DNA of 64,000 bases, from contig JABSOW010000002.1 in the NCBI GenBank assembly GCA_013215465.1, forward strand, positions 186,001 to 250,000, read 5' to 3'. The notes beneath the pieces were generated by a model. It had not been told where the DNA came from and ran no database searches. It was given only the letters and a program-made list of their open reading frames with translations. The translations under genes were made by a program, and so were the position numbers. This document shows, piece by piece, positions 41,001-64,000 of the stretch (position 1 is its first letter; each line of letters opens with the position of its first letter). Source of the DNA: Colwellia sp. (GTDB lineage Bacteria > Pseudomonadota > Gammaproteobacteria > Enterobacterales > Alteromonadaceae).

Positions 41001-44000
41001 CGGGTAATATGCGCGATGGAACAAATGGCAACGCCCTTGCGGTATCAATTGGTGGTAGTGGCGGTGATGGTGGCACATCAGGGACTGTTAATGTCTCTAA
41101 TGACGGCACTATTATTACTTATGGTGATGTAGCTCACGGCATTCTTGCCCAAAGTATTGGTGGCGGTGGCGGTAATGCTGCTTCTACTTATGCGACATCT
41201 CTTCGGGCGAATGAAAATTCTAATGCGGCTTATTCTATTGGTGGCCAAGGTGGTAGTGGCAACACTTCTGAAAATGTCACTGTGTTTAATTCAGGTACAA
41301 TCACAACTAATGGTACTAAATCTTACGGTATTTTAGCACAAAGTATTGGTGGCGGTGGTGGTAATGGCTCATTGTCAATCGCTGCGGCTTCAGGAACATA
41401 CAATAGCGCCTCTGGCAGCATTAAGAACTTTGCCATTGGAGGCTTTGGCGGTGCAGGTGGTGATAGTGGTGATGTGTTGGTTGATCATACGGGTGTTATT
41501 ACTGTTAATGGCGACCATTCATATGGTATTTATGCGCAGTCAGTTAGTGGTGGCGGTGGTTCTATGGGCTACTCTTTAAGTGCACCAGTAACATCGGTTT
41601 TAACTCACATATTGAAATTAACAAATGGTGGTGATGGCTCTGATGGCGAAGCAGGCACAATAACAGTTAACCTTGATGGTGATATTAATGTCAACGGTAA
41701 CAATAGCCACGCTGTATTTATACAGTCAGTTAACGGCGGCGGTGGCGATGTTGATATCTTTATGGATCTTAGCTTAGAAGCGCAATCAGCAGGTGAAGGA
41801 ACCGTTGATATTGAAGATAATTTATCTACCGTAGAGGAAATTATGGCGGCAATAGACAACTCTTTTGTTGGTATCGCTTTAGATTTTGGTTCAAATTTGG
41901 TTGATGAAGCAAACGGTGCCGTTGTTAACTTAATCCAAGAAGGTGAAGTGTGGCTTCTTGGCGAAGACTCTAGCGGAATAAGTGTTCAAACCGTAGGTGG
42001 TGGTGGTGGTTCTAATTATATAGATTTAACGGTATATGAACAACAAGAGGCCTCAATTGAGGTAAATATTGGTTCAACCGACTCAACAAATAGCTCAGGT
42101 GGTGATGTTGCTTATGAACGCAGTGGCAATGTTGTCATTCAAGGTGATGGCAGTGGCGGCGCTAATATTCAATCAATTGGTGGCGGTGGTGGTAGTTTGA
42201 CCATGGATATCAATGAATTAGGCATGCCTGTTGCTGTAAACTCAGAAAGTTCAGAAAGCTCAGTCGCATTGCGTTCTAGTGCCGCAGCCTCCGCGGAATC
42301 CGTAGGATTAATAACAGCACATACAGCGAACATTTCATTAGGTGCTACAGGTGGTTTAGCAAATAATGGTGGCACGATGAAGGTCAATTTTGTTGATGAT
42401 GTTATTACCACTGGTAATAGAGCTCCGGCAATTATGATTCAAAGTATTGGTGCTGGTGGTGGTGATCTCCGCTTATCTGGCCTTGATCAACTTGCCTTAA
42501 ATATTGGCGGAACTAAAGGAGCCAGCGGTAATGGTGGCGCGATTGGTTTTACCAATAGTGGGAATATTAGTACAGCAGGTTATTTATCACATGGCATTAT
42601 CTTGCAATCCGTAGGAGGAGGCGGCGGTTTTGTGCTAACAGATATTGATGAAAATGATATGTCTATCGTTTTGCAAGATGACAATGAAGGTAATGGTGGT
42701 GATATTAATTTAACCCAAACTGGAAATATTTATGTAGAAGGTGCTGGTTCAATGGGAATTGTTGCCCAATCCCTTGGCGGCGGTGGTGGCATAGTTGATG
42801 ACTATTTTGCCAGTTCTGCTGGTGGTGAAGGTACCTCAGGTAATATTAATATTAAGTCAACGGGTGATATTACCTCAATGGGAGATTATGGTAAGGCTAT
42901 ATTTGCACAATCAGATGGCACCGATGGTTCAGGTAATGTCACATTAGATCTTAATGGTAATATTGCAACTTATGGTCTTGATGGCAGAGGTGTATACGCT
43001 CGTTCAAGTAGTAGTAAAAAAGCTGCTGGGGATATTTTATTTCAATTAACGGGGAGTGCAATTGCCGGAGGTACTAGCAGTATTGGTATCGACCTATTGA
43101 CAATGTCAGCCTTAAAATCAAGTGATATTTCGGTGGTGTTAGATGCTGATATTGGCGCATTGGGCGATAATAGTCAGGGTATTTTCTTTCGTAGTATTAG
43201 CGACACTATATCAGGTGATATAGCGCTAAACTCTTCTGGCGCAGTGGTTGCTGCTGGAGAAGGAAGCACGGCTGTTAATATGTTAAGTCAAGGGAATGAT
43301 GCATCTTCGGTAGTACAAATAAACTTAATAGGTGATATCGAAGCCAGTGGTGTTAATAGTGCCGGTATTATAGCAAAAAGTATTAGTTTATCAGGTAGTT
43401 CTGAAAAGGTTATTTTTGAGCTGATCGGTAATGTACTTGCTACCAATGACAGTAGTACCGCCGTTACTTTGTTGAGTCAAGGTGACTCATCTTCCGGCCT
43501 TGTATCACTCCATGTTGATGGTGCAGTAGAAGCTTTTGGTAATAATGCGATAGGTATTGATGCACAAAGCTTAAGTAATAGTGACGCGGGTGATGTTTTT
43601 TCAAAGCTTGATGGCAATTTACTGGTTTCAGGAGCAGGTAGTCATGGGCTTTTGGCTTCAAGTGTTAGTGCTGGAAGTGCAGGGGATATTACTTTTGATC
43701 TTAAGGGGATTGCCTTGGCGGCTGGTGAAGGCGCTACAGCAATAGAGTTAATATCAAACGGTGGTATAGAATCAGGCGCAGTGACAATGTCTCTTGCTGA
43801 TAATTTAGTGGTAAATGGGAATAATAGCAAAGGGGTACTTGCTGCTAGTATAAGTAATAATATTGCGGATGCTGTTAGTTTCAATATGGCGGGCTCATTG
43901 AAAGTTAATGGTGATAATGCAACGGGTATTAATTTAATGAGTAATGGTGCTATGCAAAGTGGTGAGATTGTAGCATCACTTGATGGTAATACTATTGCAA

Positions 44001-46657: not shown

Positions 46658-47680
46658 GTGAAAGAAAAAGCTACCTCTTTTGATATCGCCTATCAGGCGG
46701 GTGTTTCTCAGTCAACAGTATCTAGAGCACTACGAAATAGTCCTTTAGTTAATGAAGCAACGCGACAAAAAATTCAGGCTATTGCCAAAGAATTAAATTA
46801 CAAAGTAGACAAAAACGCGAGTAACTTACGCTCACAGCATTGTGACACCATTGCCTTGTTACTCTTTGAAGACCCTACTAATGATGACTCAGCCATCAAT
46901 CCTTTTTTTCTTTCTATGTTAGGTAGCATAACTCGAGCTTGCGCGGATAAAGGTTATGATCTATTAGTTTCTTTCCAACAAGCAAGTAATGATTGGCATG
47001 CTGATTTTGAAGACAGTAATAAAGCTGATGGGTTAATTTTACTCGGTTATGGTGATTATGTTGATTTTGAAGAAAAACTAATTAAATTGAGTGAACAAGG
47101 AACACATTTTGTGCGCTGGGGGGCAGAAGTCAAAAATTTACCCATTGTTTCTATAGGCTGTGATAATTATCTTGGTGGCAAAGAAATTACTGAGCACGTG
47201 ATTAAGCAAGGTCGAAAACACTTTGCTTTTTTAGGTAGCGCCTCTAGCCATGCACCCGAATTTTTTGATCGTTATAAAGGTCACTGCCAAGCACTTAAAG
47301 ATAATAACTTAGTTGTGAATAGCAATATGCAGTTTAATGCTCTGTATACTGAAGAAGCCGGTTATAAGGCTGCTTGTGAATTGATAGCAAGTGGTGAAAA
47401 ATTTGATGCAATTTGTGCCGCCTGTGATTTAATCGCGGTAGGTGCTATGCGAGCCTTACATGAGTGTCAGCTTTCAATCCCAGAGCAAGTCGTGGTCGTG
47501 GGCTTTGATGATATTGCTATTGCTAGTTTTACTTTCCCTCCTTTAACAACCGTTAAGCAAGATACTCAATTAGCCGGTGAGCTATTAGTGAACACCTTAC
47601 TTGAATCGATTAATGGTAAAGAGACTTCAACCACCTTAATATCGCCAGAATTAGTGATCAGGAAATCTTGTGGATGTTAA
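46658..47680 (+). CDS. LacI-family transcriptional regulator, probably of the alpha-glucan genes
   Basis: 340 residues. The N-terminal HTH is typical (SFDIAYQAGVSQSTVSRALRNSPLVNEATRQKI), with the hinge-helix region after it (VDKNASNLRS). It is followed by a periplasmic-binding-like sugar domain (GLILLGYGDY, AICAACDLIAVGAMRAL, VVVGFDDIAIASFTFPPLTTVKQD). The start is GTG at 46658 with AGAGGT upstream. Its gene faces the convergent sugar transporter and adjoins GH31/GH13 enzymes, so the effector is probably maltose, glucose or a related sugar. The likely operator is the ATACGTAT palindrome found four times in this locus (inference). Confidence 0.92.
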   Translation: MKEKATSFDIAYQAGVSQSTVSRALRNSPLVNEATRQKIQAIAKELNYKVDKNASNLRSQHCDTIALLLFEDPTNDDSAINPFFLSMLGSITRACADKGYDLLVSFQQASNDWHADFEDSNKADGLILLGYGDYVDFEEKLIKLSEQGTHFVRWGAEVKNLPIVSIGCDNYLGGKEITEHVIKQGRKHFAFLGSASSHAPEFFDRYKGHCQALKDNNLVVNSNMQFNALYTEEAGYKAACELIASGEKFDAICAACDLIAVGAMRALHECQLSIPEQVVVVGFDDIAIASFTFPPLTTVKQDTQLAGELLVNTLLESINGKETSTTLISPELVIRKSCGC

Positions 47681-47743: not shown

Positions 47744-49255
47744 CTATTGCGCGGTTACTTCCTCTTTATCTGTAACGGATTTCTCTTCTACACCATCTTT
47801 GACAAAATACACTGACAGAGCCGCTAATACCATTGAGATACCAGCCATCATAATAATGTAAACCGCTTGGTTATCAAAAATGCTTGTTAATATCCAACCA
47901 GCAAAAATACCTGAAACAATTTGAGGGGCAGCAATAGTGAAGTTAAATATTCCCATATAAACACCCGTTTGTTTCACTGGTAATGAACCCGCCAAAATCG
48001 CGTAAGGCATCGCCAAAATAGCTGCCCAAGCCATACCAATACCCACCATAGGTAAAAATAACGTAACAGCACCTTGTGGCACTTCAATTTGAGTAATACC
48101 CAAGTTGACTATGGTTAGTTCTGGATTTTGTATCAGCATAATACTTAAGAAGCCAATACCGCCAGCCAGTAGTGATAGTGAATAAGTCAGCTTGCGACCA
48201 ACTTTGTTGGCAATTTTTGCCATAAACAATGAAGCAATAGCAGCAAAAAACATATAAGCTGCGAAGATGATACCCACCCAATCGCCAGCGGTGCCTTTCG
48301 CTTGAGCGATATGCTCAGGAATGGTACCAATGGACTCTAAGTAATGGGGATCAAACCATTTCGCCTCTATCCCCCAAATATGCTGAGTGATCGCCGGCGT
48401 GGTATAAACCCACATAATAAATAATGCAAACCAAGAGAAAAATTGCACTAAAGCCAGTTGTTTCATGGTGGTTGGCATAGTTTTCATTAAGCCAAAAAAC
48501 TCAGTTAATTTTTCACCAAGTGAGCGCTCTATATCACTTTTTTCTAATGGCGCTAACCCGTGGGTGCCAGGTGCATATTCTTTGGTTCTAAATACTGTCC
48601 ACAATACTGAGCCTAGCATTACTGAAGCGCCAATATAAAAGGCCCAAATGACCGATGGTGCCACACTGCCTGCACTAGCGGTATTATCTAAACCAATAAC
48701 ATTAGTTAATATAAATGGCATGATAGAGCCACAAACACCACCAATATTAATTAAGAAGGATTGAATTGAATAACCTACATTACGTTGCTCGCTTGGTACC
48801 ATATCTGACACTAAAGCGCGAAATGGTTGAAAAGCCAAATTAAAAGAGGCGTCCATTAATGCTAGCATCATAGCGCCAAAAAATAAGGGGGTAATAAAGC
48901 CGGCTAAGGTTGCTGAATTTGGCATTAATAACATGCCAATAGCGGCAGTAAACCCGCCTGCTAAAATGTAAGGATTACGTCTTCCTAAACGATTCCAGGT
49001 TCGGTCTGACGCAGAGCCGACGATTGGCTGGATTAGTAAACCCATGATGGGAGCGACTAACCAAAATAACGATAATGAATGTAAATCAGCACCTAAATCT
49101 GAAAGTATGCGGCTGGCATTGGCATTTTGTAAAGCAAAGCCAAATTGAACGCCTAAAAAGCCGAAACTGACATTCCATATTTGCCAAAAACTAAGGCGTG
49201 GTTTTTGATGTATTGTGTTTGTTCTTTTATTGGTATCGGCATCAGTCGTGGTCAT
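47744..49255 (-). CDS. MFS sugar transporter (SLC45/maltose-type)
   Basis: A 503-residue inner-membrane protein with about 12 membrane segments. The N-terminal SFWQIWNVSFGFLGVQFGFALQNANASRIL and the loop QPIVGSASDRTWNRLGRRNPYILAGG are typical of SLC45-like MFS sugar carriers found in bacterial maltose/alpha-glucan loci. It probably imports maltose or short maltodextrins by cation symport. It is on the same strand as the GH31 gene but is separated from it by 311 bases containing a terminator and a putative LacI operator, so it may have its own regulated promoter. Confidence 0.88.
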   Translation of the reverse strand: MTTTDADTNKRTNTIHQKPRLSFWQIWNVSFGFLGVQFGFALQNANASRILSDLGADLHSLSLFWLVAPIMGLLIQPIVGSASDRTWNRLGRRNPYILAGGFTAAIGMLLMPNSATLAGFITPLFFGAMMLALMDASFNLAFQPFRALVSDMVPSEQRNVGYSIQSFLINIGGVCGSIMPFILTNVIGLDNTASAGSVAPSVIWAFYIGASVMLGSVLWTVFRTKEYAPGTHGLAPLEKSDIERSLGEKLTEFFGLMKTMPTTMKQLALVQFFSWFALFIMWVYTTPAITQHIWGIEAKWFDPHYLESIGTIPEHIAQAKGTAGDWVGIIFAAYMFFAAIASLFMAKIANKVGRKLTYSLSLLAGGIGFLSIMLIQNPELTIVNLGITQIEVPQGAVTLFLPMVGIGMAWAAILAMPYAILAGSLPVKQTGVYMGIFNFTIAAPQIVSGIFAGWILTSIFDNQAVYIIMMAGISMVLAALSVYFVKDGVEEKSVTDKEEVTAQ

Positions 49256-49441: not shown

Positions 49442-49456
49442 TACATACGTATTCAG
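49442..49456. promoter_or_regulatory. Putative LacI-type operator 1 (upstream of MFS gene)
   Basis: TTACATACGTATTCA has the 10-bp core shared with three other sites in this locus, with a central CG as in LacI-family operators. It lies about 190 bases upstream of the MFS start, and the GH31-MFS terminator lies between them. Confidence 0.65.
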
Positions 49457-49566: not shown

Positions 49567-52071
49567 TTAATTCTCTATGCTTAACGTTAACGGTTGGTGT
49601 TGCCAAGTGAACCTCACCGTTAGGGTGTTTTTGGTCTTATCCCAATAAACATCAGATGCTGTGGTATTTGAGCCCACTTGCATTATTTTACCGGCAAGAG
49701 AGATGTTTTTTGGCGGATTAAGCCAATGATGAATGACTAATGAAATTTGTCTTTTTACCGGCATTTCGGGGTAACCATTACCCGTTCGATTAAAGGTAAA
49801 TATTATATTGTCTGCGCCTGAATTTTGTTTATTTTGTTTATTTTGTTTGGCAGTAAAGTGTAATATTTCATATTGATTTTGTGATAGTGATTGAAAGCTT
49901 TGACCGTCATCTTCATACATTTTGCCGGTACTGCTATTAACTGACTCGTCAGCATAATAGTGTAAAGTAAGCTTACTACTGTCGTAATCTTTAGTTGATT
50001 GCATATCGTTAACCATCGGGATAAATGAACCGGCGCGAACTAATACGGGTAGCGTTTCTAGGTTAGTTGCTAAAGAAATTATTTGCCCACCTTGATACTT
50101 TTTCTCAGTAAAGAAATCAAACCAAACGCCTTGAGGTAAAGGGATCGACACTGATGTTACCCCTGCATCAACAACGGGTGTTACTAAAAAGGCATCGCCC
50201 CATAAATAACTGCTAGCATTATCCATTACGTTGAGATTAAACTCATCTTCAAGCGCATATGCAAAGAAAAGCGGGCGCATCAAAGGCATGCCCGTAGTAC
50301 TATTTTGATAGGCTAAAGTGTAATTGTATGGGAGTAAGTTATATCTGAGTTTGATAAATTTTCGTAAAATATCTTGGGTGTCTTTATCATGAAAAACGAC
50401 TTCAGGGGCTATGTTATCTTGTGCGTGAGGACGGTAGATAGGTTGGAATACACCGTATTGTAACCAACGGATATATAGCTCTTTATTAAACACTTCGCCA
50501 CCGGCAAAGCCACCTAGATCTGAATGAGTATACCCCATGCCTAACAGCCCCATTTGCAGGCTAAGTTCTACTTGTGGCTTTAAGCCACCCCAAGAGCGAC
50601 TTACATCGCCCGTCCATGGGATCATGCCATAGCGTTGTGAACCAGCAAAGCCTGAGCGCATTAAAATAAATGGACGTTTGTTTGGCGCTAAACTTAGCTG
50701 GTTTTCAAAAACCATTTTAGCCCACTGATGGCCATAAACATTATGTATCGCATCGCCATTTACCACGCTGCCGTCGCTTAAAGTATGCAGGGTGTCACTA
50801 GGGTGTACTTCTGGTTCGCCTAAATCACCCCACCAGCCAGTTACACCTTGTTGGTATAAGGTTTTATAGATGTTATTGAACCAATTTTTTCCTTTATCAC
50901 TAAATATATCAATTAAGCCAGTATTGCCAAAATAAAAGTCAAAGCGCTTGGGGTTGCCATCAGCATTTTTTGCTAAAGCTTGGCTTTGCTCGGCATCAGC
51001 CCATTTTTTTGAAGTGGTTAATACAAAAGGCTCGGTGATTAATATCGTGTTCACTCCTTGCGCTTTAAGGTCACTGATCATTTTTGTCGGAGTGGGGAAT
51101 GCTGCTTTATCCCAAGCTAAATTGCCCATATGACCTTTGATATCTTTGCCAAACCAGTAAAGATCTAAAATTATGGCATCAAGCGGAAAGTCTAAATCGA
51201 TAAACTTATTAACCGTAGCTCGCACTTCTTGCTCAGAGCGATAACCGAACCGAGAGGCGTAGTTACCCAGCGCCCAACGCGGTGGCATCGGCTGCTTGCC
51301 AGTAATATCAACATAATTATTGATGAGTTCAGGGTAAGTATTACCAGCAAAAACCAGATAAGACATCCGGCCTGATACCGCTGAAAATTGCATAATGTTT
51401 GCTTCTGACTTTCCTAAATCCATCCAACCTTTAGCCGAATTATCAAATAATAAAATATATTTATTACTTGAGAATACTGCGGGTAAACTGAAATTCATTT
51501 GATTTGATTGTGTTTCATAACCGTAATGAGCACGGTTATAAAGCGGCAGACGATGGCCACGTCTATCCATGCCTAATACGCGTTCACCACCACCGAGTAA
51601 TTTTTCATTATCACTTAACTTAAAACGAAAGCCTTGTATCTGATGCTGTGTTTTATCTTCTAAGGTAGTGCCAGTAAAAAAACCAGCTTCTTCTGAAACT
51701 AGCAACTTTTCGCCATAATAGTAGCTAATATTAAAAGGGGACTTATTAATAACCGCGTTAAGTTTTCCTGCAGAGAGTAGTAGTTGCAAAGAGGTTTCTC
51801 TGACAGAAAAACCTTGCTTTTGGGCACGCTCTTTAATCGCAAATGAAGGTAAGAATGCGGCATTATTAAGTTTATTCTCATATTGATAAGTTGTTTCAAT
51901 AGCATTATCGCTATAGGCACTTAAGGTTAATTGTCCTAGTGTTGTATGAATGACTAAGCTTTGCTCTTTTAGATGATGGCTTAAGTAGCTATTCTTTTCG
52001 CTTGCTATGGTTTGGATAGCAAATAATAGTACCAACAGCAAAGTACTTTTTATCAGTAGAAGTGAACGCAA
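49567..52071 (-). CDS. GH31 alpha-glucosidase, exported
   Basis: 834 residues with an N-terminal signal peptide (LLIKSTLLLVLLFAIQTIASE), so periplasmic or outer-membrane-associated. An N-terminal GH31 beta-sandwich (EKLLGGGERVLGMDRRG) precedes the catalytic barrel (LDAIILDLYWFGKDIKGHMGNLAWD). The nucleophile is D416 in GWWGDLGEP and the probable acid/base is D489 in WTGDVSRSW. C-terminal sandwich domains follow. It releases glucose or another sugar from the non-reducing ends of alpha-glucosides. The 834-residue length and SLPLPQGVWFDFFTEKKYQGG are normal for the family. It is divergent from the GH13 alpha-glucosidase. Confidence 0.93.
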   Translation of the reverse strand: MRSLLLIKSTLLLVLLFAIQTIASEKNSYLSHHLKEQSLVIHTTLGQLTLSAYSDNAIETTYQYENKLNNAAFLPSFAIKERAQKQGFSVRETSLQLLLSAGKLNAVINKSPFNISYYYGEKLLVSEEAGFFTGTTLEDKTQHQIQGFRFKLSDNEKLLGGGERVLGMDRRGHRLPLYNRAHYGYETQSNQMNFSLPAVFSSNKYILLFDNSAKGWMDLGKSEANIMQFSAVSGRMSYLVFAGNTYPELINNYVDITGKQPMPPRWALGNYASRFGYRSEQEVRATVNKFIDLDFPLDAIILDLYWFGKDIKGHMGNLAWDKAAFPTPTKMISDLKAQGVNTILITEPFVLTTSKKWADAEQSQALAKNADGNPKRFDFYFGNTGLIDIFSDKGKNWFNNIYKTLYQQGVTGWWGDLGEPEVHPSDTLHTLSDGSVVNGDAIHNVYGHQWAKMVFENQLSLAPNKRPFILMRSGFAGSQRYGMIPWTGDVSRSWGGLKPQVELSLQMGLLGMGYTHSDLGGFAGGEVFNKELYIRWLQYGVFQPIYRPHAQDNIAPEVVFHDKDTQDILRKFIKLRYNLLPYNYTLAYQNSTTGMPLMRPLFFAYALEDEFNLNVMDNASSYLWGDAFLVTPVVDAGVTSVSIPLPQGVWFDFFTEKKYQGGQIISLATNLETLPVLVRAGSFIPMVNDMQSTKDYDSSKLTLHYYADESVNSSTGKMYEDDGQSFQSLSQNQYEILHFTAKQNKQNKQNSGADNIIFTFNRTGNGYPEMPVKRQISLVIHHWLNPPKNISLAGKIMQVGSNTTASDVYWDKTKNTLTVRFTWQHQPLTLSIEN

Positions 52072-52142: not shown

Positions 52143-52157
52143 TGAATACGTATGTAA
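52143..52157. promoter_or_regulatory. Putative LacI-type operator 2 (GH31 promoter)
   Basis: TGAATACGTATGTAA, the reverse complement of operator 1 (identical over 15 bases). It lies 72 bases upstream of the GH31 start. Confidence 0.7.
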
Positions 52158-52343: not shown

Positions 52344-52357
52344 TGCATACGTATGCA
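52344..52357. promoter_or_regulatory. Putative LacI-type operator 4 (GH13 promoter)
   Basis: TGCATACGTATGCA, a perfect 14-bp palindrome, the most symmetrical of the four copies. It lies 117 bases upstream of the chosen GH13 start. Confidence 0.75.
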
Positions 52358-52473
52358 AGGGCTATTCCCCACTAAATGAATTGCGTATTCTAAGTTGTAA
52401 TTATAAAAAATAATTCAGTCAAAAGTAGTGGTATCTACTTCAATGAATGCAAAATACAGTGTGGAGTTTTAGA

Positions 52474-54105
52474 ATGAGTGAACAACTGTGGTGGCGTGGT
52501 GCGGTAATTTATCAAATTTATCCGCGAAGCTTTTATGATGCTAATCAAGATGGTATCGGTGATTTACCCGGTATAATCAGTAAGCTAGATTATATTGCTA
52601 GCTTAGGTGTCGATGCTATTTGGATTTCGCCATTTTTTAAATCTCCGATGAAAGACTTTGGTTATGATATTAGTGATTATCGTAATGTTGATCCCATTTT
52701 TGGTAGTTTAGCTGATTTTGATGAGTTAATTGTTAAAGCGCATGAGCGCAACATTAAGATAATGATAGATCAAGTGTTAAGTCATACTTCAGATCAGCAT
52801 CAATGGTTTATTGATAGTCGAGAAGATCAAGTTAATGATAAGTCTGACTGGTATGTTTGGGCTGATGCGAAAGAAGATGGTACCGCGCCAAATAATTGGT
52901 TATCTATTTTTGGTGGCACAGGTTGGACATGGGAGCCTCGCCGTCAACAATATTACTTACATAATTTTTTATCTAGCCAACCAGATCTTAATTTTCATAA
53001 TCCACAAGTGTGCAACGCAGTACTTGATAATATTGAGTTTTGGTTAAAGCGCGGTGTTGATGGTTTTAGGCTTGATGCGATAAACTTCTGTTTTCATGAT
53101 GCTCAGCTACGTGATAACCCCGCTAAACCAAAAGAGCTAAGGCAAAGTATCGGCTTTGATGAGAAGAACCCTTATGCCTATCAGTATCATTACTTTAATA
53201 ACACTCAACATGAAAACTTAGCCTTTATTGAATCTATTCGAACGTTATTAAATCAATATCCGGGTACCGTGGCTTTAGGTGAAATATCTTCAGAAGACTC
53301 ACTAAAAACGATGGCAGAATATACTCAAGGTGATCAGCGATTACATATGGGTTATAGCTTTGATTTGCTCACTGATGAATTCTCCGCTGCTTATATTAAG
53401 CAAGTAGTACAAACACTTGAAGAACGTGTATCAGATGGCTGGCCATGTTGGGCAATTTCAAATCACGATGTACAGCGTGTAGTCAGTCGTTGGGGTAAGA
53501 GCCAAAATGCCGAGCAAAATACTGATTTAGCTAAGATGCTATTTGCCATGATTTCTTCTTTACGTGGCAGCATTTGTAGTTATCAAGGGGAAGAGCTTGG
53601 CTTAACGGAAGCAGAGATCGCTTTTGAAGATATTCAGGATCCTTACGGTATTACTTTCTGGCCACAATTTAAAGGTCGTGATGGTTGTCGTACTCCTCAT
53701 CCTTGGCAACATGATGAAATCAATGCCGGCTTCACTCAGGCTAAACCTTGGTTGCCGGTAGCGGCAGAACATCAAGAGAGATCAGTTGATCTACAAGAGA
53801 ATTCAGCTGACTCGGTACTAAATAGTTACCGTCATTTTACCAAATGGCGTAAACAGCATAGTGCTTTGCTTTATGGTGATATTGCTTTTGTCGATACCCC
53901 AGAGCCGATACTTTCTTTTATCCGAGAAGACGGCGTTGAAAAGCTGTTAGTTTGTTTTAATTTCAGTAATCAGGCGCAGGAATTATCACTGGATCTATTT
54001 ACTGACGAGCTGTTAGTACTGACTGATCATAACTTAACCACAGCTAGTGTTATTGACGGAAAAATCACCTTGCCAGCGTTTGGTTGTTTTTATGCTTCGT
54101 TGTAA
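52474..54105 (+). CDS. GH13 alpha-glucosidase (oligo-1,6/alpha-1,4 type), cytoplasmic
   Basis: About 543 residues, no signal peptide. It opens WWRGAVIYQIYPRSFYDANQDGIGDLPGI as in GH13 alpha-glucosidases. Catalytic residues are D201 (GFRLDAINF), E270 (ALGEISSED) and D332 (SNHDVQRV). It hydrolyses imported maltose or isomalto-oligosaccharides in the cytoplasm. I chose ATG 52474 because GGAG lies 7 bases ahead; the track's ATG at 52447 would add nine unlike residues. It is followed 19 bases later by the amylase gene, so they form an operon probably controlled by operators 3 and 4. Confidence 0.94.
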   Translation: MSEQLWWRGAVIYQIYPRSFYDANQDGIGDLPGIISKLDYIASLGVDAIWISPFFKSPMKDFGYDISDYRNVDPIFGSLADFDELIVKAHERNIKIMIDQVLSHTSDQHQWFIDSREDQVNDKSDWYVWADAKEDGTAPNNWLSIFGGTGWTWEPRRQQYYLHNFLSSQPDLNFHNPQVCNAVLDNIEFWLKRGVDGFRLDAINFCFHDAQLRDNPAKPKELRQSIGFDEKNPYAYQYHYFNNTQHENLAFIESIRTLLNQYPGTVALGEISSEDSLKTMAEYTQGDQRLHMGYSFDLLTDEFSAAYIKQVVQTLEERVSDGWPCWAISNHDVQRVVSRWGKSQNAEQNTDLAKMLFAMISSLRGSICSYQGEELGLTEAEIAFEDIQDPYGITFWPQFKGRDGCRTPHPWQHDEINAGFTQAKPWLPVAAEHQERSVDLQENSADSVLNSYRHFTKWRKQHSALLYGDIAFVDTPEPILSFIREDGVEKLLVCFNFSNQAQELSLDLFTDELLVLTDHNLTTASVIDGKITLPAFGCFYASL

Positions 54106-54124: not shown

Positions 54125-55924
54125 ATGATGAAAATATTGTTAACTATTTGTAGTTTACTTGCGCTAAACATAAGTGCTAATGCCACCGCGTTATCTGCCG
54201 GTTTAAGTCAAGATGAGACGGCAAAAGCGATTAAACTCGCGCCGTATCAACAACGAGATTTTCAAGATGAAGTTTTCTATTTTGTCTTACCTGACAGATT
54301 TTACAATGGTGATAAAAGCAACGATTTAGGCGCGGCAGCAGGCGATAAAAAGCGTGCTTTATCACGTGGTGGTTTAGATAAAACCCATAAAGGTATGTAT
54401 CACGGTGGTGATTTAGCCGGGCTGACAAAAAAACTGCCTTATCTTGATAATATGGGCATAACGGCTATTTGGTTAACGCCGGTTTTAAGAAACCAAGCCA
54501 TGCAAGCCGGAACATCAGGTTACCATGGTTATTGGATTTTAGATTTTACTGAAATTGATCCTCATTTAGGTAGCAATGCAGATCTAAAGCATCTTATCGA
54601 ACAAGCGCATAAGCGTAATATCAAAGTATTCTTCGATATTATAACCAACCACACGGCGGATGTTATTAAATATGAAGAATGCCACGGTAAAGATGGTTTA
54701 GGTTGGCTTGTTAAGGGTGATGATTGTCCATATAAATCATTAGCGCAACTTGTTGAGGGTGATGTTTATACGCCACTTATTCCCGTGGGTAGCGAGAATT
54801 TAAAGACACCAAGTTGGTTAAATAATATTGACGTTTACCATAATCAAGGTGACTCTCATTGGGCTGGCGAAAGTTCAATTCGTGGTGACTTTGCCGGTCT
54901 TGATGATATTGATACTAATAGTGATAAAGTGGTTGCGGGTATGGTTGATATTTATAAAGCCATTATTGATGAGTTCAAACCAGACGGTTTTCGTATTGAT
55001 ACGGTAAAGCACGTGAATATGGAGTTTTGGCAAGATTTTTCCCCTGCGTTAATGGCACATGCTAAAACGCAAGGGATTGATAACTTCTTTATGTATGGCG
55101 AGGTTTATAGCTTTGAACCTGAACTTTTAAGCCGTTTTACCGTCGAAGGAAAATTGCCATCAGTGCTAGATTTTGCCCTACAGGGTGCGTTGCAAAAAAC
55201 CTTGGTTGAGCAACAAGGTACTGATGTACTAGCGACGCTATTTGCTCAAGATCATTTCTACCAAACTACCCATGATGACATTGAAAATACTAATGCCAAC
55301 CAACTGGTTAACTTTACTGGTAATCATGACATGGGACGTTTTGCTTATTCATTAAAGCAAAGCAAGCATAACTATAGCGAGTTAGAGCAAATTCAACGTA
55401 ATTTGTTAGCGCACGCAATGTTATATTTTAGCCGTGGTGTGCCCGTTATTTATTACGGTGATGAACAAGGCTTTGTTGGTGATGGTGGTGATCAAGCGTC
55501 ACGTCAAGATATGATGCCCTCAAAAGTTGCGAGTTATAATGACGACGACTTGTTAGCAACGGATAAAACTACAGCTGCCGATAATTTTGACAGTAGTCAT
55601 TTGTTTTACCAAAGCTTTACGCAGTACGCTGAGTTATACCAGCAGTACCCCGCGTTACGTTTTGGTAAACAAAGTACGTTATATGCTCAAGATAAACCGG
55701 GTGTTTTTGCTATTTCGCGTACTCATAAGTTGTCGGAAAATGGACAAGATAAAGAGCAAGAATTACTTGTTGTTTTTAATACGGCAAACCATGTTGAATC
55801 ACTCAATGTGCTTGATAGCCATATTCATCGCGATAAGAATGCGAAGCTGCTTTATTTATCCAACGATAGTCAAGACGATGATAAAATAGCCCCGTTAAGC
55901 TTTGCTATTTATCAGTTGAAATAA
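54125..55924 (+). CDS. GH13 alpha-amylase, exported
   Basis: 599 residues with a signal peptide (ILLTICSLLALNISANATA). The GH13 barrel begins DEVFYFVLPDRFYNGDKSND. The catalytic triad is D292 (GFRIDTVKH), E326 (MYGEVYSF) and D402 (TGNHDMGRF), and ITNHT gives the conserved region I. It acts outside the cytoplasm on starch or maltodextrins, feeding the MFS importer and the intracellular glucosidase. It starts at one of two adjacent ATGs, 19 bases after the GH13 glucosidase. No terminator is evident straight after it. Confidence 0.93.
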   Translation: MMKILLTICSLLALNISANATALSAGLSQDETAKAIKLAPYQQRDFQDEVFYFVLPDRFYNGDKSNDLGAAAGDKKRALSRGGLDKTHKGMYHGGDLAGLTKKLPYLDNMGITAIWLTPVLRNQAMQAGTSGYHGYWILDFTEIDPHLGSNADLKHLIEQAHKRNIKVFFDIITNHTADVIKYEECHGKDGLGWLVKGDDCPYKSLAQLVEGDVYTPLIPVGSENLKTPSWLNNIDVYHNQGDSHWAGESSIRGDFAGLDDIDTNSDKVVAGMVDIYKAIIDEFKPDGFRIDTVKHVNMEFWQDFSPALMAHAKTQGIDNFFMYGEVYSFEPELLSRFTVEGKLPSVLDFALQGALQKTLVEQQGTDVLATLFAQDHFYQTTHDDIENTNANQLVNFTGNHDMGRFAYSLKQSKHNYSELEQIQRNLLAHAMLYFSRGVPVIYYGDEQGFVGDGGDQASRQDMMPSKVASYNDDDLLATDKTTAADNFDSSHLFYQSFTQYAELYQQYPALRFGKQSTLYAQDKPGVFAISRTHKLSENGQDKEQELLVVFNTANHVESLNVLDSHIHRDKNAKLLYLSNDSQDDDKIAPLSFAIYQLK

Positions 55925-57151: not shown

Positions 57152-57328
57152 AAAACGACAATAATTCCCTAGGCAGTGACGACAGGTTTTCCTTAAATTT
57201 TCCGTCTAATTCTGTTATCGCAGACAATAGTTTATCTACGTTAGGTAAACTCACTGATGAACACTCATTAACTGAATTTATGCTCTTAAACAAATATTTA
57301 ACAAAAAATAAAAAAATACATTGAATTA
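57152..57328. other. Intergenic region between transposase relic and Fur box
   Basis: About 180 bases, nothing recognised apart from AT-rich sequence leading to the receptor promoter. Confidence 0.35.
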
Positions 57329-57347
57329 TTTAATGAAAATCATTATC
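57329..57347. promoter_or_regulatory. Fur box upstream of the TonB-dependent receptor
   Basis: TTTAATGAAAATCATTATC matches the classical 19-bp Fur consensus (GATAATGATAATCATTATC) in 16 of 19 positions, 73 bases before the receptor start. It indicates iron-repressed expression. Confidence 0.8.
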
Positions 57348-57361
57348 ATTCGCATTAATTA

Positions 57362-57395
57362 TTTTATTATCGTGTTTTATTATCGTGTTTTATTA
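57362..57395. repeat. 13-bp tandem repeat in the receptor leader
   Basis: TTTTATTATCGTG is repeated 2.6 times without mismatch between the Fur box and the ribosome-binding site. It could change promoter-leader length by slippage. Confidence 0.8.
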
Positions 57396-57420
57396 GATCA
57401 CTTGTGAAGGATTTTTTTAA

Positions 57421-59562
57421 ATGAAATTTGGATGTTACTCCCTTGTTGCGCTAGCTGTAAGTACCGTTTTTAGTGCAAATGCCACTGAAGTTACCACTAA
57501 TAACAAAAATAAAGCTGATGCTTATGAGCGAATTATTGTTACTGGCAGCCGAATTCAAGAAAGTATTGATGAAGTACCTGCTTCTGTTTCTATTATCGAT
57601 AGGCAAACTATTAGCCAAGATTTACTCACCTCAGCAGAATTACAAACTATGCTAGCGCTGCATGTACCAGGTATGGGCGCACCTAGAGGAACTAATAGCA
57701 ACTCTGGACAAACACTACGTGGCCGTAGCGCTTTAATAATGATAGATGGCGTACCGCAATCGACACCGTTACGTAATGGTAAATTAGGTATTCGTTCATT
57801 AGATCCTAGTGTTATTGAACGCATAGAGGTAATTAAAGGGGCTACGTCAATTTACGGTAATGGTGCCGCTGGGGGTATCATTAACTACATCACTAAAAAG
57901 GCCAATGGCGATAAAGCCTTCTCTGGTCGCGTTGCCATTAGTAGTAACTTTTCTACTGTTAAATTAGAAGACAGTATTGGTCGACGCCTTGACCTTGCTA
58001 TAGATGGCACTATTGATAAATTAGATTATGTATTTAGTATTGTTAGTGATGAAAATGGCGTAATACGAGATGCTGACGGTGATGCGCTGGGCTTAACTTA
58101 TGGTTTATCAAATTTCAAGTCAGACAATTTATTTACCAAATTTAACTATTATTTTGATGATACTCATTCACTACAGTTTAGCTATAACTATTTTGAAGGA
58201 CAACAAAATTCAGATTATATTGCAGTAGAGGGCAATGTTAATAGTGGCATAAAAAGCCATGCTATTAAGAACACTGAAAATTTAGCTATTGCTGGTGACC
58301 CACAAGGTCCTCGCGGCAATCACAATGTAAAATTACAATATCGTGATATGGAGCTGTTTGCTAATACTGACTTTACCGCTGATGCCTATTGGCAAAAAAT
58401 AGAGAATGTTTTTTTCTATCATACAAAATTTAAAGATCCTAACTTAGACAATGTTGTGGGTGGTCAGTCAATGATCACTTCTGAAAAAACTGGCTTACGG
58501 TTAAATTTTAACAGTACTTTTGACTTTGAAAACCTAGAAACCACCCTAATTTACGGTGTTGATGTATTAAATGATGTTACCGCGCAACCATTAGTAGATG
58601 GCAGAATGTGGACACCTGAAATGGATATGGATAATGTTGCTGGCTATTTACAGGTCAAACTAGTATTTGCTAATAACTGGGTTGTTAAAGCAGGGGTTCG
58701 TCAAGAAGCCATCAAAATTGGCGTGGATGACTACACAACCTTAATGCTTTGTTATGACGGTAAACCATGCTCTGATACCAAGGATGTTATCGGCGGTAAT
58801 TTAGATTATGATGCCACCACTTATAATATTGGTCTGCGTTATAGTAATAACGAGCGCTTTAGTCCTTTTATCAGTTATTCTGAAGGCTTTGATATTGCTA
58901 ATATCGGCAGTATATTGCGCAGTGCTAAAACCTCTAAAATAAGTAACTTAGATACTGAGGCCTCAATAGTTAAAAACTCAGAAATTGGCTTTAGTAGTAT
59001 TTATCAAAATGTGCGTTTTGAAATGGCGGCCTTTTATTCAACCAATAACTTTGGTGGCAATATGATCGCTGACGAGAGTCTAGTGTATCGCTTAGAACGT
59101 GAGCCACAAAAGGTTTGGGGTTATGAAGCCGCCGTTGATGTAACCTTTACCGATGAACTAGATGGTGGTATCAGCTACAGCTGGGTTGAAGGTAAAAATA
59201 CCAAAAGTGATACTTACCTAGATGGTAACTCAATTAACCCACCTAAATTTACAGCTTATGTGAACTATCAAGCAACGGAAAACTTACACTTAGCTGCAAA
59301 CCTACTTGCCGTGCTTAGTCGTGATCGCTTTACTGCAGTAGATGGTAAATACAGCGGTAAAAAAGCACCTGTTTCAAGCTATAGCGTGGTTAATGCATCT
59401 GCCAGTTACAACGTCAACAGTGCATTAAAGCTATCTGCTGGTATCGAGAACTTATTTAACCGAGATTATTACCCACATGTTGCTCAATCTCATGCCTTTA
59501 CCGGTTGGAACATAAAAGGTAAAGGACGCACAATGAACTTAGGTTTAACTTATAGTTTTTAA
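57421..59562 (+). CDS. TonB-dependent outer-membrane receptor (probable siderophore receptor)
   Basis: 713 residues with a signal peptide (LVALAVSTVFSANA). A TonB box-like YERIIVTGSR leads into the plug domain (VPASVSIIDRQTI, LRGRSALIMIDGVPQ, IERIEVIKGATSIYGNGAAGGIINYIT), then a 22-strand-type barrel ending in Phe (MNLGLTYSF). Fur box and plug type both favour ferric-siderophore uptake. No siderophore synthesis or ABC importer genes are next to it. GAAGGA sits 9 bases before the ATG. The barrel includes a Cys pair (LCYDGKPC). Confidence 0.93.
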   Translation: MKFGCYSLVALAVSTVFSANATEVTTNNKNKADAYERIIVTGSRIQESIDEVPASVSIIDRQTISQDLLTSAELQTMLALHVPGMGAPRGTNSNSGQTLRGRSALIMIDGVPQSTPLRNGKLGIRSLDPSVIERIEVIKGATSIYGNGAAGGIINYITKKANGDKAFSGRVAISSNFSTVKLEDSIGRRLDLAIDGTIDKLDYVFSIVSDENGVIRDADGDALGLTYGLSNFKSDNLFTKFNYYFDDTHSLQFSYNYFEGQQNSDYIAVEGNVNSGIKSHAIKNTENLAIAGDPQGPRGNHNVKLQYRDMELFANTDFTADAYWQKIENVFFYHTKFKDPNLDNVVGGQSMITSEKTGLRLNFNSTFDFENLETTLIYGVDVLNDVTAQPLVDGRMWTPEMDMDNVAGYLQVKLVFANNWVVKAGVRQEAIKIGVDDYTTLMLCYDGKPCSDTKDVIGGNLDYDATTYNIGLRYSNNERFSPFISYSEGFDIANIGSILRSAKTSKISNLDTEASIVKNSEIGFSSIYQNVRFEMAAFYSTNNFGGNMIADESLVYRLEREPQKVWGYEAAVDVTFTDELDGGISYSWVEGKNTKSDTYLDGNSINPPKFTAYVNYQATENLHLAANLLAVLSRDRFTAVDGKYSGKKAPVSSYSVVNASASYNVNSALKLSAGIENLFNRDYYPHVAQSHAFTGWNIKGKGRTMNLGLTYSF

Positions 59563-60215: not shown

Positions 60216-61124
60216 TTAAGGCTGCGCATAACCATTTCTGGCTTCAAGCAAACGATACCAATCAGCATGGCTGTAGGCAATTGTTAAGGCTTGTTTAGCC
60301 GCAATAATACGCTCTGGTGTAGTTGAGCCAATAATAGGGCTAATGTTAGCAGGGTGCTTAAGTAACCAAGCTAAAATAAGTTGCCAAGGCAGACAGTTAT
60401 ATTTTTTGGCTTGCTGCGCTAACTCTATTTCAATACGTTGTTCATCGGCAGTAGAAAAAGTATTTCCCCATGCGGGATAAGCAACACCACCAAGCGGACA
60501 CCATGCAATAGGTGTAATGCCAAGCTGTTGGCATTGATCTAACGTGCCATCGGTTAAGCTAGTAATATTATGGATATTCACTTCTATTTGATTAACCAGT
60601 AATGGCTCATCTAACGCTGATTGTAATAAGCTAACTTGTGAAGGACTAAAATTGCTGACACCAAAGTGTTTTACTTTACCACTAGATTGTAATTGCATGA
60701 AGGTTTCGGCAACGTCTTCTGCATTGAATAAATAGTCAGGTCTATGTAGTAGAAACATATCTAAGTAATCGGTATTTAAGCGTTGTAATGAACTTTCAAC
60801 ACTATTAATAATATAGTTTTTTGCGAAATCATAACGCTGAGGATCGCGACGTATGCCCGCTTTAGAGGTGATAATCAGTTGTTCACGTATTGCTGGAGTT
60901 TCTTTTTTAAGTTCAGTAAGCAACTCCCCAAACAAACTTTCACAGTGACTATCGCCATAAATATCAGCATGGTCAAAATGTGTATAACCCGCATCTAGTG
61001 CGGCTCTTATTGCCAATTTTCCTTTGGCTTTGTCTTGAGCAGAGTTATCTCCGGCAATACGCATGCAGCCATAAATTAGCCGGGATGAAAATAAAGTGGT
61101 GTTCTTATAATGAATGTTTTGCAT
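60216..61124 (-). CDS. Aldo/keto reductase
   Basis: About 302 residues. NADPH-dependent oxidoreductase of the AKR superfamily (YdhF-like). The catalytic tetrad regions are present: HFDHADIYG (Asp, Tyr), ITSKAG (Lys) and MFLLHRPD (His). The NADPH-binding end is SPIIGSTTPERI. The track's start is a TTG overlapping the upstream halogenase by 8 bases; I prefer the ATG at 61124 with GGAAAA just before it. It follows the two halogenase genes closely on the same strand, so it is probably part of their transcript. The substrate is unknown. Confidence 0.9.
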   Translation of the reverse strand: MQNIHYKNTTLFSSRLIYGCMRIAGDNSAQDKAKGKLAIRAALDAGYTHFDHADIYGDSHCESLFGELLTELKKETPAIREQLIITSKAGIRRDPQRYDFAKNYIINSVESSLQRLNTDYLDMFLLHRPDYLFNAEDVAETFMQLQSSGKVKHFGVSNFSPSQVSLLQSALDEPLLVNQIEVNIHNITSLTDGTLDQCQQLGITPIAWCPLGGVAYPAWGNTFSTADEQRIEIELAQQAKKYNCLPWQLILAWLLKHPANISPIIGSTTPERIIAAKQALTIAYSHADWYRLLEARNGYAQP

Positions 61125-61134
61125 TTTTTTCCAA

Positions 61135-62631
61135 TTAATCAAATGGTTTGCTATGCTTGTTGAAATTAAGACTACAGCCGTTGAGAAAATCGTTTATATT
61201 TTTATCTTTATATAAATCGCCTGTGCCTGGTTGATTCGCAGCTAAAGGGGGGAAAGCGCCATACCCCGCAAGCAAGCAATGCCAAGAAACACTGTCAAAA
61301 TGATCGCTTAATTGCTGACGTTCTATTTCCGTAGCTAAATCTTCTCTTTTATACCAAACATCCAGTAACTGAATCAGTGAATCTGACAAGTGTGGGTTTT
61401 CTCTATTCGCACGCCAATACTCACTATCGTCTTTGGTATTAAGTTTGTAATGCGCCACAATATAATCTCTTACGCGATCAAATCGTAGTGCAACCTGACT
61501 ATTATAGTCATTCCTATTCTTATTGGTGAAGTTAGCTTCTTCAAATTGGTCAATGAACATTTCAATGCATATTTGTACTAAATGTAACGCAGTGGCTTCA
61601 AGAGGTTCAATAAATCCTTGTGATAAGCCTAAACCAATACAATTATGTGACCATTGAGACGCTAAACGCCCAACCTTCATTTTTAAGTGCTGCGCTTGTT
61701 GATCACCATCAAGGCAATTAAGTTTGCTGCGTAATTCTGTTTCGGCATCATCAGCTGAAATAAAATCACTACTATAAACATAGCCATTGCCAAATCTGTT
61801 ATTGAGCGGTATTTTCCAACACCAACCCGCGGACAATGCTGTAGATACCGTTTCTACAGGTATAATATCGTTCATTGGTGTTGGCATAACTACAGCGGCA
61901 TCATTAAATAAGTTTTCTTTGTAGCTCTGAAATTTAACGCCTAAAGTTTTTTGCATTAATACTGCGGCAAAACCAGAACAGTCAATAAAAAAGTCACCTG
62001 TGATAACATCACCAGTTTTAGTTTTAAGTGCTGCTATATCACCATTGTTATGTTGCTCTATTTCAACAATATGCGCGGTACGATGTTCTACGCCACGACT
62101 AATGGCAAGTTCAGCAAGAAATTTACCTAATAAATGAGAATCAAAATGATAACCATATTCCATTTTAAACGGAAAGTTATTTGGTGCAACGGGGCTTTTT
62201 CCTTGTTTTGCTAACAAGCCATTAAGTAAAAAGTCTTCTGGCTGGGTATGGGTAGCTAACCCTAAGCGCCGAGTACGGCAATTAACGGCAAAAGATCTTG
62301 ACGTAAACGTATCGACTTGTGAAGGAAAAGGATGGCCATAACTATTAATGCCTGATTTAGGGCTCCAGCCATCAAAGCGAATACTAACTTTATAGGTGGC
62401 ATTACAACGCAACATCCACTTCGACTCTGGTATCTCAAGTATTTCAAAAAAGCGTTTTAAGGTCGGTGTAGACCCTTCACCCACACCAATGATGCCAACA
62501 TCAAGTGATTCAACTAAGGTTATTTGTACCTTTTTATCGGCCCATTTTTTAACAAATAAATTAGCTGCCATCCAGCCCGCAGTACCACCACCTAAAATAA
62601 CAAGTTTCAACGGTTTATTGAAATCTCTCAT
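61135..62631 (-). CDS. Flavin-dependent tryptophan-halogenase-family protein
   Basis: 498 residues. FAD-binding GGGTAGW starts at residue 14, and GVGEGSTPTL follows. The catalytic lysine aligned with PrnA K79 is K81 (NATYKVSIRF), the active-site glutamate is E342 in IEPLEAT, and WCWKIP at 270-275 satisfies the WxWxIP halogenase motif. All residues needed for halogenation therefore appear present, although many marine members have unknown or sugar-linked roles. Its ATG overlaps the TGA of the preceding halogenase gene (ATGA), implying translational coupling. A flavin reductase partner is not seen in the window. Confidence 0.92.
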   Translation of the reverse strand: MRDFNKPLKLVILGGGTAGWMAANLFVKKWADKKVQITLVESLDVGIIGVGEGSTPTLKRFFEILEIPESKWMLRCNATYKVSIRFDGWSPKSGINSYGHPFPSQVDTFTSRSFAVNCRTRRLGLATHTQPEDFLLNGLLAKQGKSPVAPNNFPFKMEYGYHFDSHLLGKFLAELAISRGVEHRTAHIVEIEQHNNGDIAALKTKTGDVITGDFFIDCSGFAAVLMQKTLGVKFQSYKENLFNDAAVVMPTPMNDIIPVETVSTALSAGWCWKIPLNNRFGNGYVYSSDFISADDAETELRSKLNCLDGDQQAQHLKMKVGRLASQWSHNCIGLGLSQGFIEPLEATALHLVQICIEMFIDQFEEANFTNKNRNDYNSQVALRFDRVRDYIVAHYKLNTKDDSEYWRANRENPHLSDSLIQLLDVWYKREDLATEIERQQLSDHFDSVSWHCLLAGYGAFPPLAANQPGTGDLYKDKNINDFLNGCSLNFNKHSKPFD

Positions 62632-64000
62632 GAGACAGAACCTTTTAATATCGTTTGTAAAAACTCATCATGACTTGGCAAAGAAGCAATAGGTTCGTTT
62701 TTTGCGGCTTTAATTTTTTTCAACATATCTAGTAGAGCATCAGAAGAAACACTGTTAGCAATGGGATGATAATCTTTAGGTATTATACCTTGCCCAACCA
62801 TAACTTGTAGCCAAGAGCTATCAAGAAAAAGGTCATTTTGTTTTCTAAATAATCGTCCGCTTTCAGAAAAAATTTCTATTTTATGGGCTAAAGTATCCGG
62901 AATATCCATTGTACGCATGTCATGCCAAAAGCGACTATCGGTGCGCTGATTTGCATGGTAATGCAAAATAAGAAAATCCCGAATTTGTTCAAACTCAATT
63001 TTAGATTGATCATTATATGCAGAGACAAGCGCACTATTAACACCTTGGTGTGGAAATAAATTCACTAACCGAGTGATAGCTGATTGAATTAAATGAATGC
63101 TGGTTGACTCTAATGGCTCAAGAAAACCACTTGATAAACCAATAGCGATTACATTTTTGTGCCATTGTTTACGTCGACGTCCAGTAGTGAAACGAAATAA
63201 TTTAGGCTCACTCAAAACTTTAGAGTCTAAATTACTTAATAATAATTCTTTAGCTTGTTCATCACTATAATAACGACTGCTATAAACTAGGCCATTACCG
63301 TTGCGGTGCTGCAATGGAATGCGCCATTGCCAGCCAGCAGAATGCGCAATTGAACGAGTATAAGGTAACGTTTTTTCTAAACGTTCAGACGGCACCGCAA
63401 TAGCACGGTCACATTGTAACCAATGACTCCAATCTTCGTAGCCAGTTGATAGTTTTTCTTGAATCAGTAAACCTTTAAAGCCAGAGCAATCTATAAATAA
63501 ATCACCATTTATTTGGCTACCGTCTTTTAATTGTAATGCTTGGATATAACCAGTTTCATTACATTGCTGAACATGTTCAACCATGCCCTCAGTGCGTTTG
63601 ACTCCTATTTTCTCACTAAATTTTCTTAAAAAATTGGCGTATAAGCCTGCATCAAAATGATAAGCATGCGGAATTTCATAAAGTGGATTTTTACTGTTAA
63701 TATTGGCAAATTTACCTGCTTCAGCACATAAGTAATTTAAATCGTATTGCCAAAGTTGTTTGTCATCTTCAAGTTGATTGGCTCGTTTTAATAAGTGATG
63801 AAACTGACAAAAAGCTAAACTTCGACCGGCAGCACCAAAAGTATGGTAATAACTCTCACCTTGAACTTTCCAATTTTCAAACTTAATCGCAAGTTTTATG
63901 GTCGCTTTGGTCTCTCGTAAAAACTCAGCATCATCAATGCCTAAAACATGGTTAAATAACTTAATGGGGGGTATAGTTGCTTCGCCAACGCCGACCGTAC
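62628..64000 (-). CDS. Second flavin-dependent tryptophan-halogenase-family protein (5' end beyond window)
   Basis: The ORF track gives only 62628..63584, but the same frame stays open to the window end and reads VGVGEATIPPIKLF, then TIKLAIKFENW (catalytic Lys region) and IPHAYHFDAGLYANFL. It continues with FIDCSGF, AGWQWRIPL (WxWxIP motif) and FLEPLEST (active-site Glu). About 457 codons are visible; the FAD-binding N-terminus lies outside. It is a paralogue of the downstream gene, and both belong to one operon. The C-terminal tail is longer than in its neighbour. Confidence 0.92.
   Translation of the reverse strand, partial: TVGVGEATIPPIKLFNHVLGIDDAEFLRETKATIKLAIKFENWKVQGESYYHTFGAAGRSLAFCQFHHLLKRANQLEDDKQLWQYDLNYLCAEAGKFANINSKNPLYEIPHAYHFDAGLYANFLRKFSEKIGVKRTEGMVEHVQQCNETGYIQALQLKDGSQINGDLFIDCSGFKGLLIQEKLSTGYEDWSHWLQCDRAIAVPSERLEKTLPYTRSIAHSAGWQWRIPLQHRNGNGLVYSSRYYSDEQAKELLLSNLDSKVLSEPKLFRFTTGRRRKQWHKNVIAIGLSSGFLEPLESTSIHLIQSAITRLVNLFPHQGVNSALVSAYNDQSKIEFEQIRDFLILHYHANQRTDSRFWHDMRTMDIPDTLAHKIEIFSESGRLFRKQNDLFLDSSWLQVMVGQGIIPKDYHPIANSVSSDALLDMLKKIKAAKNEPIASLPSHDEFLQTILKGSVS

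Follow-up and report, generated by a model that had tools for sequence, protein, structure and literature searches.

Two adjacent flavin-dependent halogenase genes behind a TonB-dependent receptor in an alpha-glucan locus of Colwellia sp.

The window, a stretch of 64,000 nucleotides from Colwellia sp. (contig JABSOW010000002.1, positions 186,001 to 250,000), ends inside a halogenase gene. Both halogenase reading frames, HalA and HalB, lie where the first-pass annotation had placed them, HalA being open at the window end. That annotation had also called for a look at the sequence beyond 64000, which completes HalA and reveals a TonB-dependent receptor directly upstream, followed by a divergent pullulanase; the receptor, which is the most telling neighbour, lay just out of view. 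The features are as follows, positions beyond 64000 being window equivalents.

46658-47680, plus strand: LacI-family regulator, a candidate binder of the palindrome
47744-49255, minus strand: MFS sugar transporter
49567-52071, minus strand: GH31 alpha-glucosidase-type enzyme
52344-52357, no strand: operator-like palindrome TGCATACGTATGCA in the GH31/GH13 intergenic region
52447-54105, plus strand: GH13 alpha-glucosidase/amylase-type enzyme
54125-55924, plus strand: GH13 alpha-amylase-type enzyme
60216-61142, minus strand: aldo/keto reductase (PF00248) with a TTG start and an alternative ATG at 61124
61135-62631, minus strand: HalB, second halogenase, of another clade than HalA (498 aa; PF04820)
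62628 to past the window end at 64000, minus strand, ATG at 64142: HalA, flavin-dependent halogenase (504 aa; PF04820)
64326-67232, same direction as HalA: TonB-dependent receptor of the TIGR01782 class (968 aa), directly upstream of HalA
67399-67412 and 67439-67452: two further exact copies of the palindrome, upstream of the receptor
67528-70368, divergent from the receptor: pullulanase (946 aa)

The receptor, HalA, HalB and the reductase are all read in one direction. HalA and HalB overlap by four bases as ATGA (TCAT on the plus strand at 62628-62631), as had been noticed before. The reductase, likewise recognized earlier, is a PF00248 gene 3′ of HalB in the same direction; it overlaps HalB by 8 bases if read from the TTG and begins 10 bases past the HalB stop codon if read from the ATG. 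Five other loci (L086, L091, L105, L204 and L222) likewise carry a homologue immediately 3′ of HalB or HalA. Its family rules it out as a flavin reductase. The earlier remarks that neither a biosynthetic cluster nor a flavin reductase is visible hold for the ORFs of the 14 kb past the window and for the genes identified in the cluster, respectively; three PF01613 genes are present in the genome, all on other contigs.

A tie to nutrient uptake, through starch or iron, had also been raised as a possibility. Its alpha-glucan part is well supported by the receptor upstream, the divergent pullulanase, a common palindrome and a cassette kept across genera. The iron part is not, since the siderophore-type receptor at 57421-59562 is convergent, separate and without the palindrome. 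Upstream of this receptor (window 57300-59562), the stretch ATGAAAATCATTATCATTCGCATT resembles a Fur box by eye, and the receptor is therefore probably iron-regulated and separate. Three other features were observed in the surroundings. First, a glycine-rich repetitive ORF of 5,741 aa with a C-terminus that looks autotransporter-like by eye occupies window positions 29033-46258. Second, a 255-aa, apparently truncated fragment of another TonB-dependent receptor (plug region) lies behind the pullulanase (L009:12545-13312). Third, near-identical segments with an AraC-type regulator and an AzlC-type gene occur twice within about 20 kb (L009:18994-19896 and L010:12373-13418), a local duplication.

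Both proteins match the Pfam family Trp_halogenase (PF04820), scoring 412 and 561 bits where 21 is the cut-off, and contain the FAD motif GxGxxG. The catalytic Lys, Glu and WxWxIP motif reported for both are indeed seen in the two sequences, as ATIKL, FLEPLESTSI and GWQWRIP in HalA and as ATYKV, FIEPLEATAL and GWCWKIP in HalB. Both depart from the Fx.Px.Sx.G motif: HalA reads S-T-S, its Gly being replaced as in BrvH, and HalB reads A-T-A, with both Ser and Gly replaced. Because BrvH is active without that Gly, such a departure does not exclude activity. Ala in place of Ser after the catalytic Glu is a clade feature, GVGEGST and EPLEAT being found in 95 of 95 distinct HalB-type proteins; EPLEST or EPIEST is found in 93 of 101 distinct other halogenases. 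HalA is likely, and HalB fairly likely, to have halogenase activity, and the two are probably enzymes that put bromine or chlorine onto an aromatic compound.

HalA is 52.7% identical to 9luq, 47.6% to Xcc4156 and 44.0% to BrvH. It groups with the first two in the tree (support 87-96), apart from the free-tryptophan halogenases of the PrnA, RebH and PyrH type; BrvH itself stays unresolved near the base. Aligned with Xcc4156, HalA shows a single gap, of 4 residues near substrate-binding loop 1, and none in loop 2. HalB is only 34.5% identical to HalA and similarly far from every solved enzyme tested (36% at best). By score its nearest solved relatives are free-tryptophan halogenases, yet in the tree it forms its own clade with a support of 100, apart from the indole halogenases of the BrvH/Xcc4156 type and with an unsettled branching order. 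To our knowledge, no member of this clade has been characterized or assayed. The low identity, the separate clade and its specific motifs indicate that the pair is an old combination of two subfamilies rather than a recent duplication.

The order receptor-HalA-HalB is widely kept. It is found in 19 of 20 HalB-orthologue loci from family members, with HalA-HalB gaps of -16 to 53 bases; the exception, L080, has HalB alone behind the receptor. The counts given below for alpha-glucan enzymes, receptor-linked halogenases, palindromes and hairpins are of distinct (de-duplicated) entries. A scan of named genomes found relatives in Colwellia, Thalassotalea, Paraglaciecola, Alteromonas, Glaciecola, Cellvibrio, Pseudoalteromonas, Aliikangiella and sphingomonads. 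Enzymes of the alpha-glucan types searched for accompany a close HalB (at least 750 bits) in 23 of 26 loci, but a halogenase without HalB in only one of 25. They thin out with distance from HalB, being present in 6 of 20 loci at 650-750 bits and in 18 of 38 below that range. No second halogenase is seen in about one third of the HalB-type loci. In four loci (L101, L104, L106 and L110), a single receptor is followed by a run of three adjacent halogenase genes, of which the middle one is very divergent with long tree branches.

Linkage to a receptor extends beyond this cassette. The genome has eight PF04820 genes in seven loci, and in every one of these a TonB-dependent receptor stands immediately before the halogenase on the same strand. 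About 65 plug-domain genes occur in an estimated total of some 4,000, so that by chance a given locus would have such a neighbour in about 1.6% of cases. A receptor lies within three same-strand upstream genes for 171 of 199 halogenases, a proportion not to be carried to all bacteria because the sample, drawn by halogenase similarity, consists mostly of Alteromonadales and HalB relatives. Several of the others are at contig ends or have a receptor farther off. On the receptor tree, halogenase linkage needs 7 changes versus 40.5 in shuffles, a contrast inflated by near-copies. By these counts the halogenases look like transport-linked enzymes rather than enzymes of secondary metabolism. Among the other loci of the genome, a further receptor-halogenase pair stands some 28 kb from the first (L010:14251-18788; C12:278251-282788); its halogenase is 58.7% identical to HalA, and the pair adjoins a sodium-symporter-type transporter and has no palindrome upstream. 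On contigs C15 and C45 (L013:8676-11818 and L014:9364-10920), receptor-linked halogenases with an altered WxWxIP (GWIWDIG, GWTWDIA) and Ala for Ser beside the Glu are followed by SapC (PF07277) and once by DUF6445 (PF20043). On contig C5 (L011:9040-11146), a receptor-linked halogenase adjoins a convergent NADPH-dependent FMN reductase (PF03358).

The palindrome TGNATACGTATNCA is common to the receptor/pullulanase and GH31/GH13 intergenic regions. Its exact pattern has three sites in the whole 4.68-Mb genome, all at the alpha-glucan locus and two of them before the receptor; the reversed pattern, taken as a control, has none in the genome. Copies with one mismatch lie at 49442, before the MFS transporter, and at 52143 and 52313 in the GH31/GH13 region. 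Among close cassettes in which HalB has a HalA-type partner, 25 of 29 have the exact palindrome before the receptor; where the partner of a close HalB is HalC12b-type, none of 14 has it there, and nor does any of 16 HalC5-type loci. The HalC12b-type cassettes without it, together with the 6 of 20 loci at 650-750 bits, indicate that the cassette is not bound to starch. The palindrome is also found at 14 of 19 receptors without a halogenase, including second starch receptors. Thus, it goes with the sugar regulon and the halogenases with a receptor class, and starch uptake as such does not require a halogenase. We infer that the LacI-type protein binds the palindrome with maltose as effector. By direct folding, a terminator-like hairpin separates the receptor from HalA. 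Such hairpins stand behind the receptor, at a median of 59 bases, in 67 of 87 receptor-halogenase gaps versus 8 of 261 shuffled gaps. A simple consensus scan of the coding strand, which also left the hairpin unlisted, found no promoter between the hairpin and HalA. The hairpin likely means that much receptor and little halogenase is made.

We therefore favour, with a probability of roughly 0.65, a reading in which HalA and HalB are co-regulated, transport-linked halogenases of the alpha-glucan locus, the acceptor being left open. As accessory enzymes of a starch/maltodextrin uptake locus, they would be controlled by the LacI-type protein together with the receptor, pullulanase and GH31/GH13 genes, and would be made at a lower level than the receptor by read-through of the hairpin. 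Following the chemistry of the family, a general flavin reductase would supply FADH2 to each enzyme, FADH2, O2 and bromide or chloride would yield HOX, and the catalytic lysine would steer HOX to an electron-rich aromatic ring, which would thereby be halogenated. Related enzymes follow receptors in loci that lack alpha-glucan genes, and the acceptor is for this reason more likely to have to do with the receptor system than with the glycan; that it is tied to the transport system at all is about an even bet. Points against this reading are the HalC12b-type cassettes and more distant loci that speak against a bond to starch, the second starch receptors without a halogenase, the lack of a flavin reductase in the cluster and that of the conserved Ser beside the catalytic Glu in HalB.

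The alternative that survives best, possible although clearly less likely, is that a diffusible small aromatic such as indole or phenol is halogenated for detoxification, as a signal or in antagonism, and that this is induced along with sugar uptake. BrvH accepts free indole for bromination but not tryptophan, and Colwellia transcripts annotated as rebH/prnA have been read as a sign of competition (PMC11337851). However, the bromination of indole by BrvH is slow and its authors doubt that indole is the natural substrate (PMC5945002), and the position of the genes behind receptors would be left unexplained.

One or both proteins, HalB above all, might instead now be flavin oxidases or monooxygenases. 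The Ala found beside the Glu throughout the HalB clade and the altered WxWxIP of the SapC-linked receptor halogenases of this genome point that way, but Lys, Glu and WxWxIP are intact in the two proteins of the pair, and we regard such a change of function as unlikely.

The pair might, like the peptide halogenase MibH, halogenate an aromatic residue of a protein that has yet to be exported, be it the co-encoded receptor or another; this is a live but minor reading and rather improbable. From the open active sites of BrvH and Xcc4156, the authors of both structures propose peptide substrates; if peptide halogenation is correct, the receptor becomes a candidate acceptor, and it is the one neighbour that stays the same from locus to locus. 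However, a comparison of linked with unlinked receptors reveals no aromatic residue that tracks halogenase linkage: Y726 and Y913, the only aromatics in at least 93% of linked receptors, are also present in 89% and 96% of unlinked ones. Moreover, Xcc4156 is only 26% identical to MibH (PMC7336383). It is more doubtful still that halogenation of the receptor or a co-exported protein would serve to mature a class of TonB-dependent receptors and would be what BrvH/Xcc4156-type enzymes do natively.

Secondary-metabolite pathways are the main known setting of PF04820 enzymes, but that HalA and HalB serve such a pathway elsewhere, their neighbourhood being incidental, is very improbable, because the receptor linkage of 171 of 199 halogenases and the common palindrome argue against chance and no biosynthetic genes lie nearby in the 14 kb past the window.

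The reading of HalA and HalB as transport-linked halogenases concerns enzymes of a known kind, but the HalB clade and a transport-linked cassette with a palindrome appear, as far as checked, to be undescribed. In the searchable open-licence literature we found no description of a link between halogenases and TonB receptors or between halogenases and starch or polysaccharides; papers elsewhere may hold one. Since the arrangement recurs in many aquatic bacteria, it gives a lead on the purpose of such halogenases. Their conserved and apparently co-regulated tie to sugar-import receptors narrows the search for a substrate, pointing to growth on starch or maltose with bromide and to a candidate partner. 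It is also a warning that PF04820 matches in such bacteria should not be taken as secondary-metabolite genes by default.

Among known systems, the locus as a whole resembles the CUT loci, which serve carbohydrate utilization with a TonB-dependent receptor, such as sux of Xanthomonas and mal of Caulobacter (PMC1790865). As in these, the receptor, an inner-membrane transporter, a LacI-type regulator and glycan-degrading enzymes stand together in the Colwellia locus, and the palindrome provides a shared regulatory site. Halogenases, present here, are absent from the main text of that paper.

The relatives of HalA, BrvH and Xcc4156, are active brominating enzymes (PMC5945002; PMC7336383), and it is stated not to be known what BrvH and the Xanthomonas halogenases act on in nature (PMC7336383). 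BrvH (PDB 6FRL; Brevundimonas BAL3/Botany Bay metagenome) shares with HalA the Ser at the second halide-site position, and its gene also adjoins a second halogenase gene. However, the BrvH pair is 42.7% identical, versus the lower value for HalA and HalB, and the BrvH paper does not mention TonB. Xcc4156 (PDB 6Y1W, Xanthomonas campestris), placed with HalA in a supported part of the tree, has Asn at the second halide-site position, whereas HalA has Ser. PDB 9LUQ, annotated as a tryptophan halogenase, is the solved sequence nearest to HalA. For HalB, the best solved matches are the tryptophan 5-/6-halogenases (8FOV and SttH, 5HY5; 35-36% identity), which have CNATYK in common with it but differ in EPLEST for its EPLEAT and in SYVCMLLGLG for its SWHCLLAGYG.
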